A DNA stretch of 64,000 nucleotides from Thermoflexibacter ruber (lineage in GTDB: Bacteria > Bacteroidota > Bacteroidia > Cytophagales > Thermoflexibacteraceae). The notes under the pieces were generated by a model that worked only from the letters and a program-made list of their open reading frames with translations, was not told the DNA's origin and did no database searches. Location: positions 1-64,000 of the forward strand of contig NZ_FONY01000004.1 of NCBI RefSeq assembly GCF_900113045.1. The letters are read 5' to 3'. Position numbers and translations under genes: made by a program. Shown piece after piece: positions 11,791 through 55,035 of the stretch (position 1 is the stretch's first letter; each line of letters starts with the position of its first letter).

Positions 11791-12978
11791 TTAAACAAGG
11801 ATTTCAGTAACCTGACCAGCACCTACTGTACGACCTCCTTCACGAATCGCAAAACGAAGACCTTTCTCCATGGCGATTTCTTTCTGAAGTTTTACAGTAA
11901 TAGTGATGTTATCACCGGGCATAACCATTTCTACTCCACTTGGCAAGCTAATAGTACCTGTTACGTCAGTAGTTCTGAAATAGAACTGAGGGTTATATCC
12001 GTTGAAGAATGGAGTATGACGACCACCTTCTTCTTTAGACAATACGTAAACCTCTGCCTTAAATTCTGTATGTGGTTTTACGCTACCGGGCTTGCAAATA
12101 ACCATACCTCTACGGATTTGTTCTTTGTCAATACCTCTGAGCAATAAACCTACGTTATCACCTGCTTCACCTCTGTCCAAAATCTTACGGAACATTTCTA
12201 CCCCTGTTACAGTAGATTTAAGACCCTGCGCTCCCATACCGATAATATCTACAGCATCACCAGAGTTGATGATACCTCTTTCAATACGACCAGTAGCTAC
12301 AGTACCACGACCAGTGATAGAGAATACGTCTTCTACAGGCATCAAGAATGGTTGGTCAATCAAACGAGCGGGCAATGGAATGTACTCATCAACAGCGTCC
12401 ATTAACTCTTCTACAGTTTTAACCCATTTAGGTTCACCGTTCAATGCACCTAAAGCAGAACCACGAATGATTGGTATATTATCGCCGTCAAACTTATAGT
12501 ATGAGAGCAATTCTCTCATTTCCATCTCTACCAAATCCAACAACTCAGGGTCATCTACCATGTCCACCTTATTCATAAACACTACAAGTGCAGGAACACC
12601 TACTTGGCGTGCTAAAAGAATATGCTCACGAGTTTGAGGCATAGGACCATCAGTAGCCGCAACTACGATGATAGCACCGTCCATTTGAGCCGCACCTGTA
12701 ACCATGTTTTTCACATAGTCAGCGTGACCAGGGCAATCCACGTGTGCATAGTGTCTTTTGTCTGTTTGATATTCTACGTGTGCGGTATTGATTGTAATAC
12801 CTCTTTCTCTTTCCTCTGGGGCATTATCAATAGAAGAAAAATCTCTCTTCTCAGCCAAACCTTTGTTCGCTAATACTGTAGTGATTGCCGCAGTCAAAGT
12901 GGTTTTACCATGGTCAACGTGACCAATAGTACCAACGTTTACGTGAGGCTTGGAACGGTCAAATACTTCTTTTGCCAT
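11791..12978 (-). CDS. tuf: Translation elongation factor Tu
   Basis: The GTPase that brings aminoacyl-tRNA to the ribosome. The start at 12978 gives [16 protein letters not shown] and 395 residues, the normal length. The G1 motif [10 protein letters not shown]3 DCPGHADY and G4 NKVD are intact, and domains 2 and 3 run to the usual end, [15 protein letters not shown]. The longer frame to 13113 runs back through the tRNA-Thr gene and is not coding. It is transcribed behind tRNA-Tyr, tRNA-Gly and tRNA-Thr. In many Bacteroidota secE and nusG follow tuf; here a terminator and hemA follow. Confidence 0.98.
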
Positions 12979-13055
12979 TTTTAAAACTAATAATGTTTGA
13001 AATTTTCTAAATAATGCTTTGCTTATAAAATCAACTACACACTTTTGGATTCTTG

Positions 13056-13127
13056 AGCCGATGATGAGAATTGAACTCACGACCTCTTCATTACCAATGA
13101 AGTGCTCTACCACTGAGCTACATCGGC
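13056..13127 (-). tRNA. tRNA-Thr (GGT)
   Basis: A 72-base cloverleaf on the minus strand. The acceptor arms GCCGATG and CATCGGC pair. The anticodon arm has CTTCA/TGAAG around the loop TTGGTAA, giving GGT. The T-arm has GTTCAATTC. CCA is not encoded. It lies 77 bases ahead of the tuf start. Confidence 0.93.
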
Positions 13128-46574: not shown

Positions 46575-47681
46575 ATGAAAAGTCTTCGTTCTTTATTTCT
46601 ACTTGCTATGCTCTTTGTATGGAGTGTAGGGGTAATCTTGGCGCAGGAGTCTGATGACTTATATTTCTTTGCAAAGGATAGAGAGTCTGAGATGGTAGCA
46701 AAGAGAGCATCTACAGCAAAGTTGAATGCAATCACCATGCGCGATGCGATGCAAGATGAATCTATGCGCTCTAAGTTTGCTAATCCTGATTACCAAGCAA
46801 ATACAAATCAAAACACTACTAATCTTCCTTATTTTAGGAAAGATTACAGAAGAGATTATAGTTTCAATAGTCTTTATGCCAATAATGCGGCAATAAACAA
46901 CCGATTTGGATTTTTCAACAATCCATTTATGAGTTCTTTTGGCGTAGGTATGATGTGGGGCAATCCTTCAATGATGTGGAACGACCCATGGATGATGAAT
47001 AGAATGGCGTGGAACCATCCTTGGATGTGGAATGACCCTTGGATGATGAACTCCATGATGTGGAACGACCCATGGATGATGAACAGAATGGCGTGGAACA
47101 ATCCTTGGATGTGGAATGACCCTTGGATGATGAACTCCATGATGTGGAACGACCCATGGATGATGAACAGAATGGCGTGGAACAGTCCTTGGATGATGAA
47201 TAGCTGGAACAGATGGAACATGGGCTGGGGTATGGGTTGGAACAACTGGAATAGTATGTATTGGGGAAGAAATATGTTCTTTAGTCCATATCAAAATGTA
47301 GTAAACAGCGTTTCAAGAAGTACAGTAACTTCCAATTCTGCTACTCGTCCAACAAGTGGGGCAGATTACGCAAGCTACATTAGGTCTTCCAGTGCTTATG
47401 GTAATTACTCTAATTCAAGTGTAGGCAATAGTGCCAACTACAACGCAGTAGAGTACAAAGGAGGTACAGCGAATAGTTACTTCTATGGTACTCCTAACAC
47501 TGCTAACGGTTCTAATTGGGGAATGCGTTCAGTAGATTACAATAATCGCGGTTCTTATAACAATAGCATTAGAGGTTCTTCAGGGAATAGTGGCTATGGT
47601 AGCAGTTCAAGCGGCTTCGGTTCCTATGGTGGTGGCGGTGGAAGCCGCTCCGTAGGTGGCAGAGGTGGCAGAGGAAACTAA
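46575..47681 (+). CDS. Exported Trp/Met/Asn-rich repeat protein
   Basis: A 368-residue protein of unknown family. A signal peptide ends LAQ (about residue 23). A charged N-terminal part (25-100) is followed by a segment (about 120-235) built of short units such as WNDPWMMN, MAWNHPWM and MMWNDPWM, very rich in Trp and Met. Two complete copies and part of a third form an 84-base tandem repeat. The C-terminal part (240-368) is rich in Ser, Asn, Tyr and Gly, ending in a Gly/Arg tail. It may be a surface, adhesive or metal-binding (copper via Met) protein; these are guesses from composition. Composition differs sharply from its neighbours. A strong terminator follows. Confidence 0.7.
   Translation: MKSLRSLFLLAMLFVWSVGVILAQESDDLYFFAKDRESEMVAKRASTAKLNAITMRDAMQDESMRSKFANPDYQANTNQNTTNLPYFRKDYRRDYSFNSLYANNAAINNRFGFFNNPFMSSFGVGMMWGNPSMMWNDPWMMNRMAWNHPWMWNDPWMMNSMMWNDPWMMNRMAWNNPWMWNDPWMMNSMMWNDPWMMNRMAWNSPWMMNSWNRWNMGWGMGWNNWNSMYWGRNMFFSPYQNVVNSVSRSTVTSNSATRPTSGADYASYIRSSSAYGNYSNSSVGNSANYNAVEYKGGTANSYFYGTPNTANGSNWGMRSVDYNNRGSYNNSIRGSSGNSGYGSSSSGFGSYGGGGGSRSVGGRGGRGN
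46974..47200 (+). repeat. 84-base tandem repeat coding for Trp/Met units
   Basis: Copies start at 46974 and 47058, with a partial third from 47142. Each complete unit encodes 28 residues of the form MWNDPWMMNRMAWNxPWM plus WNDPWMMNSM. The copies differ by few bases (for example CAT, AAT and AGT at the variable codon), which points to recent duplication. Confidence 0.85.
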
Positions 47682-50799: not shown

Positions 50800-53700
50800 A
50801 TGCGAATTATCCTGATTTTCTTGCTTTTAACATCTTTCTGTGCCTTTGCCCAAGTGCGTGTTAAAAGCCCCCAAATAGCATCTGCACCCTTATTCCAATT
50901 TACAGAAAATAAAAATCAGTGGGAAAAAGAAGTGCTTTTCCGCGCTGATATTCCTGATGGTTTTTTGTTTTTGAAAAAAAATGGCTTGCATTACGGCTTT
51001 TATGATGCCCAAGCCGTATCCGAACTCAGACACCCTAAGAAAAAAGAAACCAATGAAAATACTAAGGCAAGGGTAGAAGGTAATAACGCTGACGAGAGCA
51101 AGTTCAATATCAAAGCTCATGGGGTATCAGTTAAATTTTTAAATGCTCGTTCGCAACCTATGGTAAGTGGAAAAGGGAAAATAAGTGGGATTCGCAACTA
51201 CTTTATAGGCGAAGACGAAAGCAAGTGGGCAAGCAATGTGCAGTCTTTCCAAGAGGTAAACTATCTATCTATTTATCAAGGAATTAATCTTAGATTGTTT
51301 ACACAAGGGCAGAGATTAAAGTATGAGTTTGTAGTGGAGGCAGGGGCAAATCCTAACCTAATACAAATGCAATACGAAGGAGCAGAGCAAATGCGTATTT
51401 CAGAAGAAGGAAATCTGGAAATCACCACTTCTATTCATGTTTTCGGTGAAAAAAAGCCTTTTACTTACCAAGTCATCAACGGAGAAAAAGTAGAAATTCC
51501 CTCTAAGTTCGTATTGAAAAATAATGTAGTCAGCTTTGAGTTGGGAAGTTATAATAAAAATTTGCCTTTAGTCATAGACCCACAATTAGTTTTTTCTACT
51601 TTCTCTGGCTCTACAGCAAACAACTGGGGCAATACAGCGACCTATGATACCTTAGGCAACCTCTACACAGCAGGAACAGTTTTTGGGACAAATTTCCCCA
51701 CTACGGTAGGGGCATTCCAAAGATTTTTTGGCGGAATAATAGACGTAGGTATTTCTAAATACAACCCCACAGGTACACTCCAACTTTATACTACTTTTTT
51801 AGGAGGTTCATTTGCAGAAGTTCCTCATAGCTTGGTAGTTAATAATTTAAACCAATTAGTAGTCATGGGAACGACAAGCTCTACCAACTTCCCTACTACT
51901 GTTGGGGCTTTTGACCGTACTTATAACGGAGGCAGTGGAGCAAACAGCTTTGAGGCAATTAGCGGGATTCCTTACAATAATGGGAGTGATATTTTTGTGA
52001 GTACGCTAAGCACCAATGGAAACGCATTGCTGGCTTCCACTTATTTAGGAGGTTCAGGAAACGACGGATTAAATATTTTTGGAACAGCTTTCGTACATAA
52101 CTACGGTGATGAACTCAGAGGAGAGGTCAATGTAGATGCGCTTAACAACGTGTATGTGGCTTCTACTACTCGCTCCACTAATTTTCCTCTACAAACCGCT
52201 ACACAAACTAATCTCTCAGGTTTACAAGACGCTGTTTTTATTAAACTAAGTCAAGGTCTGAACAACCTACTTTGGAGTACCTATTGGGGAGGGAGTGGAC
52301 TTGACGTAGGCTATTCTATCAAAATTAATAAGGTAAACGAAATTTTAGTTTGCGGAAGTACTACAAGCAACAACTTACGTACTTCTAATAATTCTTTCCG
52401 ACCCACTTTCCAAGGTGGGAGTTCTGACGGATTCGTAGCTCGCTTTACTACAAATGGTACTTTCTTAACAGGTTCATATTTAGGCACATCAGAGTATGAC
52501 CAAGCCTTTATCTTAGACTTAGACCAAGAGGATAATGTCTATGTCTTAGGAAATACAAGGGGGCAGTACCCTGTAAGTGCAGGCGTTTACAGCAATGCCA
52601 ATAGTGGGCAGTTTATTCACAAATTAAACCCTAATCTAAGCACTTCTTTATGGTCAACGGTTATTGGTACGGGAAGGCGAACACCTGATTTGTCTTTGAC
52701 AGCCTTTTTGGTGAATGAATGTGGGAATATGTATGTAGCGGGTTGGGGCGGAAACTTGCAAGCTGGCTACCCTGCAAATAGCACCACAGTTGGGCTACCT
52801 ACTACTGCTGATGCCATAAGAAGAACTACCGATGGGCAAGATTTTCATTTGATGCTCATAGAAAAAGATGCAAAATCCTTGCTATATGCTACATTTTTTG
52901 GAGGAGTAGGTGGCGAAGGCGACCATATAGACGGAGGAACTTGTCGCTTTGATAAAAAAGGAGTAGTGTATCACGCCGCTTGCGTATGCCGCTCTAATCG
53001 TTTTTTTACTACTCCGGGTGCATGGTCAAGGGTAAATAATGCCGCTCCCACAGGTGGAGATACCGAAGGCTGTAATAATGCAGCTTTTAAAATAGACATA
53101 GAAATTCTCCAAGCAGGGTTGCGCCCCTTAGATGCGGCAACAAGTGTGGAAAGAAGAAGCGGTTGCGCCCCCTTGCGTATTCGCTTCCAGAACCGAAGCG
53201 TTAATGCCCAAGAAATTGAGTGGAATATCGGTAACGGTTTGCTTGTTACCCAAGTCAGCGAGCCTGTTTATACTTTTACTCAACCGGGGAGATACATCGT
53301 ACAGCAAAAAGTAAGTAGCAAACTTACTTGTGCTACCCTGTTTGCTTATGATACGATTACCGTTCTGCCTGTGGTAAACGCCACCATCAACAGGGATACT
53401 ATTCTTTGCCGAGGTACCTCTATCCAACTACAAGCCTCAGGAGGCACAACCTATCGTTGGACACCTGCGGCAAGTTTAAGTAATCCTAATATCGCTAATC
53501 CTATTGCCAACCCTACCCAAACTACACGCTACACTGTAACTATTTCTAATCCAGAGGGTTGTTCTAAGGATACTTCCGTACTAATTACGGTGGCTAATCC
53601 AGTGGCAAGTTTTAACTTAGCCCTTGATGACCTTTGCGATAACTCTCCTACAGTGAGGCTTACCAATACCAGCCCAGATGCTACGGAGTATATTTGGGAT

Positions 53701-55035
53701 TTGGGAGATGGTAGGGCTTTTATAGGGCGAACTCCTCCTCCATTCAAATATACAAGAAGTGGTTTTTACCAAATCTCCTTGACAGCAAGGATAGGTACTT
53801 GTACGAATCGGGCTACTCGGGACGTAAATATAGTGGTGCAAGCAGATTTACCCCCTATTACGATTACCAGAGATACGATTATATGCAGAGGGCAAAGCGT
53901 GCAACTGAATGTAACAGGAGGAAATAGCTACATTTGGCAACCTGCCACAGGGCTGAGTAATCCGAATATAGCAAACCCAGTAGCACAGCCAAGCCAAACC
54001 ACTCGTTACCAAGTAACTATCATTAACAGAGAAAACTGTCGCAGGGATACGGCTGTAACGGTAACAGTGGCTAATCCTATTGCTAGCTTTACGGTCAATA
54101 CAGAGAATATTTGCGACCCCTCCCCTACTATCCGCCTTACCAACACAAGTACAGATGCTACTGCTTTCGAGTGGAATTTTGGTAATGGGCAAACTTTTGC
54201 AGGGCAGAATCCTCCACCTTTCAAATACCAAGAAAGTGGAACTTACCAAATCACTTTGACAGCAAGGAGAGCAAACTGCGTAAGTCAATTTTCACAAATG
54301 GTAAATGTTTCTGTGTTAGCAGACCTCATGCCCACCATAACAAAAGACAGCGTACTTTGTACCAACGAAAGCTTGCAGTTAGTAGCAACAGGAGGGATTG
54401 CCTATCGGTGGAGTCCAGCCACAGGACTAAGTAATCCGAATATTGCCAACCCTATAGCACGCCCAACACAGACCACTCGTTATACGGTAAGTATTACGCG
54501 CAGAGAAGGTTGCGTTCAGGAGCTTTCTACTTTAGTTCGTGTAATCAATCCTGCATCAGCAAGTTTCGCCGTCAATTATGAAGATTTTTGTTCTCCTTTT
54601 CCTACGGTTCGCTTAGTCAATACCAGCCCTGAGGAGGCAAACTTTGTGTGGAACTTAGGCAATGGGCAAACCTTTGTAGGAAAAGAGCCACCTCCTTTCA
54701 AATATACTCAAAGCGGAAACTATCGCGTAACACTTACTGTCAGCGAGGGGAGATGCTCCAGCCAATTTGTGCAGAACTTAGCAATAGAGGAATTTATTTT
54801 TCCTAACGTAATTACGCCCAACGGCGATGGAAAAAATGAAACCCTATTTTTCAATTCTCCTATTTTAGGCTTAAAAGTAGAAATTTATAACCGATGGGGA
54901 AAATTGGTCTATAAAAGCGATAACTACCAAAATGATTGGAAAGGGGAAGGCATTGCAGGGGTGTATTATTACTTAGTCAGTTCGCCCGACGGAAAAACTT
55001 GCAAAGGGTGGCTTAATGTATTTACAGGGAATTAA
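50800..55035 (+). CDS. Large SBBP/PKD adhesin-like protein with type IX secretion C-terminal domain
   Basis: A 1411-residue exported protein. A signal peptide ends FAQ (about 18). An N-terminal beta domain (about 27-265; YFIGEDESKW) is followed by SBBP beta-propeller repeats (about 266-740: GNLYTAGTVFGTNFP, NVYVASTTRSTNFP). Then come PKD-like domains, the last three of which form a tandem of about 160-residue modules (from 53378, 53860 and 54336). Each has a CxG..VQL motif, a SNPNIANP motif and a PPFKY motif. The end (about 1330-1411), with FPNVITPNGDGKNE and VEIYNRWGKLVY, is the gliding-motility-associated C-terminal domain that directs type IX secretion. It is probably a surface protein. 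Confidence 0.9.
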   Translation: MRIILIFLLLTSFCAFAQVRVKSPQIASAPLFQFTENKNQWEKEVLFRADIPDGFLFLKKNGLHYGFYDAQAVSELRHPKKKETNENTKARVEGNNADESKFNIKAHGVSVKFLNARSQPMVSGKGKISGIRNYFIGEDESKWASNVQSFQEVNYLSIYQGINLRLFTQGQRLKYEFVVEAGANPNLIQMQYEGAEQMRISEEGNLEITTSIHVFGEKKPFTYQVINGEKVEIPSKFVLKNNVVSFELGSYNKNLPLVIDPQLVFSTFSGSTANNWGNTATYDTLGNLYTAGTVFGTNFPTTVGAFQRFFGGIIDVGISKYNPTGTLQLYTTFLGGSFAEVPHSLVVNNLNQLVVMGTTSSTNFPTTVGAFDRTYNGGSGANSFEAISGIPYNNGSDIFVSTLSTNGNALLASTYLGGSGNDGLNIFGTAFVHNYGDELRGEVNVDALNNVYVASTTRSTNFPLQTATQTNLSGLQDAVFIKLSQGLNNLLWSTYWGGSGLDVGYSIKINKVNEILVCGSTTSNNLRTSNNSFRPTFQGGSSDGFVARFTTNGTFLTGSYLGTSEYDQAFILDLDQEDNVYVLGNTRGQYPVSAGVYSNANSGQFIHKLNPNLSTSLWSTVIGTGRRTPDLSLTAFLVNECGNMYVAGWGGNLQAGYPANSTTVGLPTTADAIRRTTDGQDFHLMLIEKDAKSLLYATFFGGVGGEGDHIDGGTCRFDKKGVVYHAACVCRSNRFFTTPGAWSRVNNAAPTGGDTEGCNNAAFKIDIEILQAGLRPLDAATSVERRSGCAPLRIRFQNRSVNAQEIEWNIGNGLLVTQVSEPVYTFTQPGRYIVQQKVSSKLTCATLFAYDTITVLPVVNATINRDTILCRGTSIQLQASGGTTYRWTPAASLSNPNIANPIANPTQTTRYTVTISNPEGCSKDTSVLITVANPVASFNLALDDLCDNSPTVRLTNTSPDATEYIWDLGDGRAFIGRTPPPFKYTRSGFYQISLTARIGTCTNRATRDVNIVVQADLPPITITRDTIICRGQSVQLNVTGGNSYIWQPATGLSNPNIANPVAQPSQTTRYQVTIINRENCRRDTAVTVTVANPIASFTVNTENICDPSPTIRLTNTSTDATAFEWNFGNGQTFAGQNPPPFKYQESGTYQITLTARRANCVSQFSQMVNVSVLADLMPTITKDSVLCTNESLQLVATGGIAYRWSPATGLSNPNIANPIARPTQTTRYTVSITRREGCVQELSTLVRVINPASASFAVNYEDFCSPFPTVRLVNTSPEEANFVWNLGNGQTFVGKEPPPFKYTQSGNYRVTLTVSEGRCSSQFVQNLAIEEFIFPNVITPNGDGKNETLFFNSPILGLKVEIYNRWGKLVYKSDNYQNDWKGEGIAGVYYYLVSSPDGKTCKGWLNVFTGN
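53378..54790 (+). repeat. Three tandem PKD-containing modules inside the large adhesin
   Basis: Each module of about 480 bases starts with a DT/DS-[IV]-[IL]-C motif, followed by SNPNIANP, then a PKD core with W-[DN]-LG-[DN]-G and PPPFKY. The copies share long identical stretches at protein level but differ by many silent bases. Confidence 0.75.

Follow-up and report, generated by a model that had tools for sequence, protein, structure and literature searches.

FadL-fold barrels such as BamG and PorV play central parts in building the outer membrane and in secretion in the phylum Bacteroidota. BamG, which B. thetaiotaomicron encodes alongside three other FadL paralogues (PMC12578637), is an outer-membrane barrel with a lipoprotein partner, BamH, which carries a surface-export signal (PMC12578637, PMC12611786). 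In F. johnsoniae, the lipoprotein Fjoh_4940 is encoded near the FadL homologue Fjoh_4941; both rise on depletion of TamL, and the authors of that study suggest a functional link between the two (PMC12045153). The gene pair that we describe here resembles BamG–BamH in combining a FadL-fold barrel with an exported, often lipid-anchored neighbour, and Fjoh_4940/Fjoh_4941 are possibly a proS-linked example of it. Unlike BamH, this neighbour, which together with its family we call FAM0 as a working name, lacks a surface-export signal, is of low complexity and is predicted to be disordered. We found no paper on the family in the literature on Trp/Met-rich repeats, vitellogenin-like names of old annotations, low-complexity RGG exported proteins or proS-linked FadL.

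The window, by which we mean the whole 64-kb stretch of DNA analysed, encodes one FAM0 protein (Table 1), from the single copy of the gene in the 5.5-Mb genome. The open reading frame is real and not a product of the repeat inside it, as judged from full-length orthologues with conserved flanks and a strong hairpin right after the stop codon. This hairpin, which was detected by folding whereas a scan for consensus terminators returned none after the gene, is likely an intrinsic terminator, and its U-run behind the stop makes the gene probably a transcription unit of its own. Export of the protein, as the sequence-only reading had proposed, is predicted from a signal peptide (...VILA, followed by QESDD) in which A23, Q24 and E25 are invariant among orthologues; signal peptidase I likely cuts before Q24, and inspection of the sequence revealed no lipobox. 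Neither the protein nor its orthologues matched any family in Pfam or NCBIfam, and the same two collections revealed neither a C-terminal type IX secretion sorting domain nor any other known export domain in FAM0. The protein is predicted to be disordered, with a pLDDT of 38 in a model built on six sequences, a value that could also reflect poor modelling.

Three overlapping antisense open reading frames of 76–123 aa (window 46874–47294, minus strand) span the 84-bp repeat. We judged these to be by-products of the repeat, as they are open because those frames contain no stop codon within the 84-bp unit. Elsewhere in the window, positions 50800–55035 encode a 1411-aa protein with PKD-like repeats and a ITPNGDGKNETLFF...-type C terminus typical of type IX (type B) sorted proteins. 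The EF-Tu open reading frame (11791–13113, minus strand) starts, as called, at a GTG well upstream, and its extra N-terminal 22 residues look like read-through of an upstream tRNA gene.

Table 1. Features of the FAM0 gene, in window coordinates
Feature	Position	Strand	Basis
CDS of FAM0, predicted exported Trp/Met-repeat protein, 368 aa	46575..47681	+	Full-length orthologues
Signal peptide, residues 1-23	46575..46643	+	Sequence; A23-Q24-E25 invariant among orthologues
N-terminal motif DDLYFFAKDR, residues 27-36	46653..46682	+	Sole block conserved through the class
Variable middle rich in Trp/Met/Asn/Pro, residues 126-236	46950..47282	+	Composition
84-bp in-frame tandem repeat, 28-residue unit, 2.7 copies, 97% match	46971..47195	+	TRF
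Tail rich in Ser/Gly/Asn/Arg, end GGRGGRGN, residues 237-368	47283..47678	+	Composition; predicted disordered
Hairpin then U-run directly after the stop codon	47701..47741	+	Folding, z = -9.4

The near-identical tandem repeat, the unusual Trp density and the Gly/Ser tail that the sequence-only reading had described were all borne out by measurement. The period-84 array is by far the strongest within the window (TRF score 429). Two substitutions separate copies 1 and 2 over their 84 bases, one at a third position and the other replacing H with N, and copies 2 and 3 show 1 difference in their 57 shared bases; the 28-residue unit reads MMWNDPWMMNRMAWN[HNS]PWMWNDPWMMNS. Across residues 126–236 (111 residues), Met makes up 26.1%, Trp 20.7% and Asn 19.8%, and the C-terminal 132 residues contain 22.7% Ser and 18.9% Gly. 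Over the whole protein Trp reaches 6.8%, the highest value among the ATG-start open reading frames of at least 150 aa in the window (next 3.6%, median 0.8%). The suggestion of recent duplication also held: copies 1 and 2 are 98% alike, whereas the best ungapped identity of the unit to any stretch of six orthologous genes is 51–62%. The 84-bp repeat therefore arose recently within this lineage, out of a motif that is older in the family.

Orthologues from the same family place the repeat in context. The analysis covered 13 genomes of this family, which named relatives identify as Bernardetiaceae, Cytophagales; a protein search found FAM0 in 7 of them, including the genome of the window, and a profile search added an eighth (G012). 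A contig search with the single window sequence found no relative, and one queried with the FAM0 alignment found 13. The Bernardetiaceae proteins share a conserved N terminus (AQEyDDvYFtxKDR ... SKFANP ... PYFrKDY) and an Arg/Gly/Ser tail (..GRGGRGN), with A23, Q24, E25, D27, D28, Y30, F31, K34, D35, R36, S66, K67, F68, N70, P71, Y86, F87, K89, D90 and Y91 invariant in the alignment; the same-genus orthologue (L003/L037) is 63% identical to the window protein. Each of these proteins has 1–5 WNDPW[ML]MN-type cores, which genera of the family have in common. The tandem arrays differ from one orthologue to the next: 84 bp × 2.7 in the window, 93 × 1.9 in L003, 39 × 4.9 in L004, 84 × 2.0 in L005 and 99 × 1.8 in L007. 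Orthologues of the same length with conserved non-repeat residues had been named in advance as evidence against a repeat-centred view, and this was found in part, in that conserved non-repeat ends exist. With such ends and with differing tandem units of their own, the orthologues lend no support to the view that the role of the protein lies in its repeat. The Trp/Met repeat does not define FAM0 but is a lineage-specific elaboration of the variable middle of an old family.

Profile searches across the order and the class, together with reading of individual loci, provided a wider set of FAM0 proteins with a shared layout: a signal peptide or lipobox, a DD[VLM]Y[FY] motif, a variable low-complexity middle and an Arg-rich end. 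In distant relatives, all that is kept is the motif near the mature N terminus or lipid anchor, the low-complexity middle and the basic C terminus, and the homology of the most divergent proteins is based on position, motif and composition instead of alignment scores. Beyond Bernardetiaceae the middle is rich in Gly, Asn, Tyr, Trp and Ser, with little Met (0.8–0.9% in L042/L044). Around 35 of the 76 FAM0 proteins scored as lipoproteins, a count that is approximate because the simple lipobox pattern makes a few mistakes in each direction: signal peptidase I probably cleaves L008 and L032, and L029, L083, L086 and L089 are probably lipoproteins. In 34 of these 35 relatives the Cys lies 8–13 residues ahead of the motif (21 in the one outlier). 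Acidic residues are absent from positions +1 to +6 in all 35, which accordingly lack the export signal of surface lipoproteins as a published rule defines it, at least two acidic residues among the first six (PMC12578637). All 76 proteins have R, K or H within the last six residues, and over the last 150 residues Arg outnumbers Lys by 1396 to 147. Motif, anchor distance and Arg-rich C terminus thus persist in highly divergent lineages, with the middle varying freely in length and composition. The window protein has the same parts, its signal peptide lying close to the motif (ILA, followed by QESDDLYF) and its basic end following an Arg/Ser/Gly tail, and on this reading of the sequences it is best regarded as the Bernardetiaceae form of a class-wide, putatively exported family.

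FAM0 genes are closely associated with a second gene. In most Cytophagales the order is floA–nfeD–proS, divergent, then FAM0, then a β-barrel of around 510 aa. At 40 of 42 FAM0 loci the barrel gene follows immediately in the same orientation, after a gap of 3–378 bp; as L014 and L081 are identical, this corresponds to 39 of 41 distinct places, the exceptions being L020 and L021. Conversely, in 20 Bacteroidia genomes with a barrel match but no match to the FAM0 profile (L108–L127), all 20 have an exported low-complexity protein directly upstream of the barrel (11–123 bp) with proS divergent; nearly all of these proteins have a DD[VIL]Y-type motif, and their ends are mostly basic. We found the barrel itself in 361 of the 395 Bacteroidia genomes, with weaker matches in other classes of the phylum. 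We also noted that a locus of divergent proS, low-complexity lipoprotein and FadL-like barrel is near-universal in Bacteroidia (L108–L127, L014–L036, L081–L099).

The window species is atypical: its FAM0 lacks a lipobox and has a Trp/Met middle, and the barrel gene is on another contig. FAM0 lies on C84 and the barrel orthologue, 68% identical to that of the same-genus genome G011, lies unlinked on C54 (G000:C54:140249-141793; L061:6250-7797), so that FAM0 is not directly upstream of the barrel here as it is in G011 (G011:C79 31339 / 31520) and at those 39 of 41 places; the assignment of the window protein to FAM0 follows from its full-length orthology to the G011 protein. With the two genes adjacent in G011 and apart in the window species, the separation happened inside one genus. 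Each of the eight family genomes with FAM0 has the barrel too, unlinked in most, and three more hold a barrel and no FAM0 match (G002, G003 and the 62%-complete G010). In other Bernardetiaceae (L038–L041), FAM0 stands head-to-head with a gene for a haemolysin III-related membrane protein in place of proS. We set this neighbour aside as local synteny of related Bernardetiaceae that is absent in the window.

The partner barrel has a FadL-type fold. An AlphaFold2 model built on eight sequences (pLDDT 78.9) fits the barrel fold with N-terminal hatch region that characterizes FadL/Toluene_X proteins. In Foldseek its best PDB match was BamG of the B. thetaiotaomicron BAM complex (9hiv_F, E 2.8e-18), followed by E. 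coli FadL, TodX and the BamG proteins of P. gingivalis and F. johnsoniae (E 1e-18 to 1e-14 overall); TM scores of around 0.5–0.65 confine the likeness to the level of fold. Identity with BamG, which these matches led us to consider, was ruled out by sequence: partner barrels score at most 30.3 bits against the NCBIfam BamG model NF053685 (cut-off 250), and a PDB sequence search with the barrel gave no match to BamG. The genome of the window has a separate true BamG, L104 (1171-2445; G000:C73), with 352.6 bits and E 2.2e-38 to 9hiv_F; its gene directly follows an apparent type III pantothenate kinase gene (G000:C73). Against the PorV/PorQ model of the type IX secretion system (NF033709), the partner barrel scores 22–42 bits, below the cut-off of 90, and no T9SS cluster was seen adjoining it. 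Its overall fold is like that of the hydrophobic transporters FadL and TodX (PF03349; Foldseek E around 1e-16 to 1e-17), and one of six partner barrels exceeds the Pfam Toluene_X cut-off (34.9 versus 29.7), but its neighbour is FAM0, not a gene for fatty-acid or aromatic degradation. Most partner barrels tested fall under every curated cut-off, and no curated name exists for the barrel. Being distinct from BamG by sequence and sub-threshold to PorV/PorQ, it is a separate paralogue of the FadL superfamily.

Our preferred explanation, which we consider moderately probable, is that FAM0 is a disordered accessory partner of the FadL-like barrel, located in the envelope, and that its aromatic middle became a fast-turning Trp/Met repeat in the window lineage. 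FAM0 would remain an envelope protein at the outer membrane and use its N-terminal motif to dock near the membrane, on the barrel or on a shared factor. Its chain, which is aromatic, rich in Arg and predicted to be disordered, could then make many weak contacts (cation–π, hydrogen-bond and electrostatic) with the barrel, with the membrane or LPS, with the cell wall or with client molecules, and the pair might serve lipid or hydrophobic transport, outer-membrane assembly or surface export. Because the middle is loosely constrained, slippage or unequal recombination would keep rebuilding it; in the window lineage this may have turned it into the Trp/Met 28-mer repeat while its aromatic ‘sticker’ character was kept. 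Counting against a partnership, the window gene is not beside the barrel and appears to have its own terminator, and adjacency elsewhere is not proof of binding.

A more ambitious proposal, which we advance tentatively and think possible though rather doubtful, makes FAM0 and the barrel a near-universal Bacteroidia outer-membrane machine parallel to BamG–BamH and PorV. A disordered, Arg-tailed and often lipid-anchored chain would thread, gate or tether the barrel, with the short docking motif and the charge pattern alone conserved. The logic would be comparable to that of the BamP linker, which enters the BamA barrel. If so, the Trp/Met repeat would offer a natural test of how much drift a working chain tolerates.

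FAM0 might instead be a substrate, a sticky surface or matrix protein that is exported through or with the barrel to form an adhesive film, one of the roles suggested by the sequence-only reading, with the Trp/Met repeat adding cohesion. Lineage-specific tandem repeats with differing unit lengths are common in surface proteins, and FAM0 has them (84, 93, 84, 99 and 39 bp) in a chain that is low-complexity, aromatic, Arg-rich and predicted to be disordered. We consider this unlikely given that FAM0 matched no sorting or export domain in Pfam or NCBIfam, that the uniform lack of an acidic surface-export signal in the lipoprotein relatives points to a periplasm-facing anchor, and that a near-universal barrel does not resemble a niche adhesion trait. 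A third explanation, that the two genes are co-expressed by history, with FAM0 a weakly constrained filler or spacer and its Trp/Met repeat near-neutral slippage, is in keeping with the free divergence of the middle and with a pair that is mostly unlinked in Bernardetiaceae. It strikes us as quite improbable when the motif, its 8–13-residue distance from the anchor and the Arg-rich C terminus are kept across highly divergent lineages, FAM0 is retained even once separated from the barrel and genera of the family have WNDPWxMN-type cores in common. Finally, copper binding through Met-rich motifs, which the sequence-only reading had raised on seeing a middle that is 26% Met with MM pairs every few residues, is very improbable, and we reject it as the family function because Met is not conserved outside Bernardetiaceae; Met is also down to 3.9% in L008, the window protein has one His and no Cys, and no copper gene adjoins FAM0 either in the window or at those orthologous loci that we inspected.

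The main interest lies in the conserved FAM0–barrel pair, which lay beyond what could be seen from the window sequence alone, and not in the Trp/Met repeat. The protein with this conspicuous repeat is one variant within a family that is old, widespread and unnamed, not a new type of metal-binding or fibre protein. The pair occurs in nearly every Bacteroidia genome examined, yet neither Pfam nor NCBIfam has a family for FAM0. Since BamG and PorV are central in the phylum, a FadL-like barrel that is the third conserved one and has a disordered partner of its own would represent a concrete gap open to testing.
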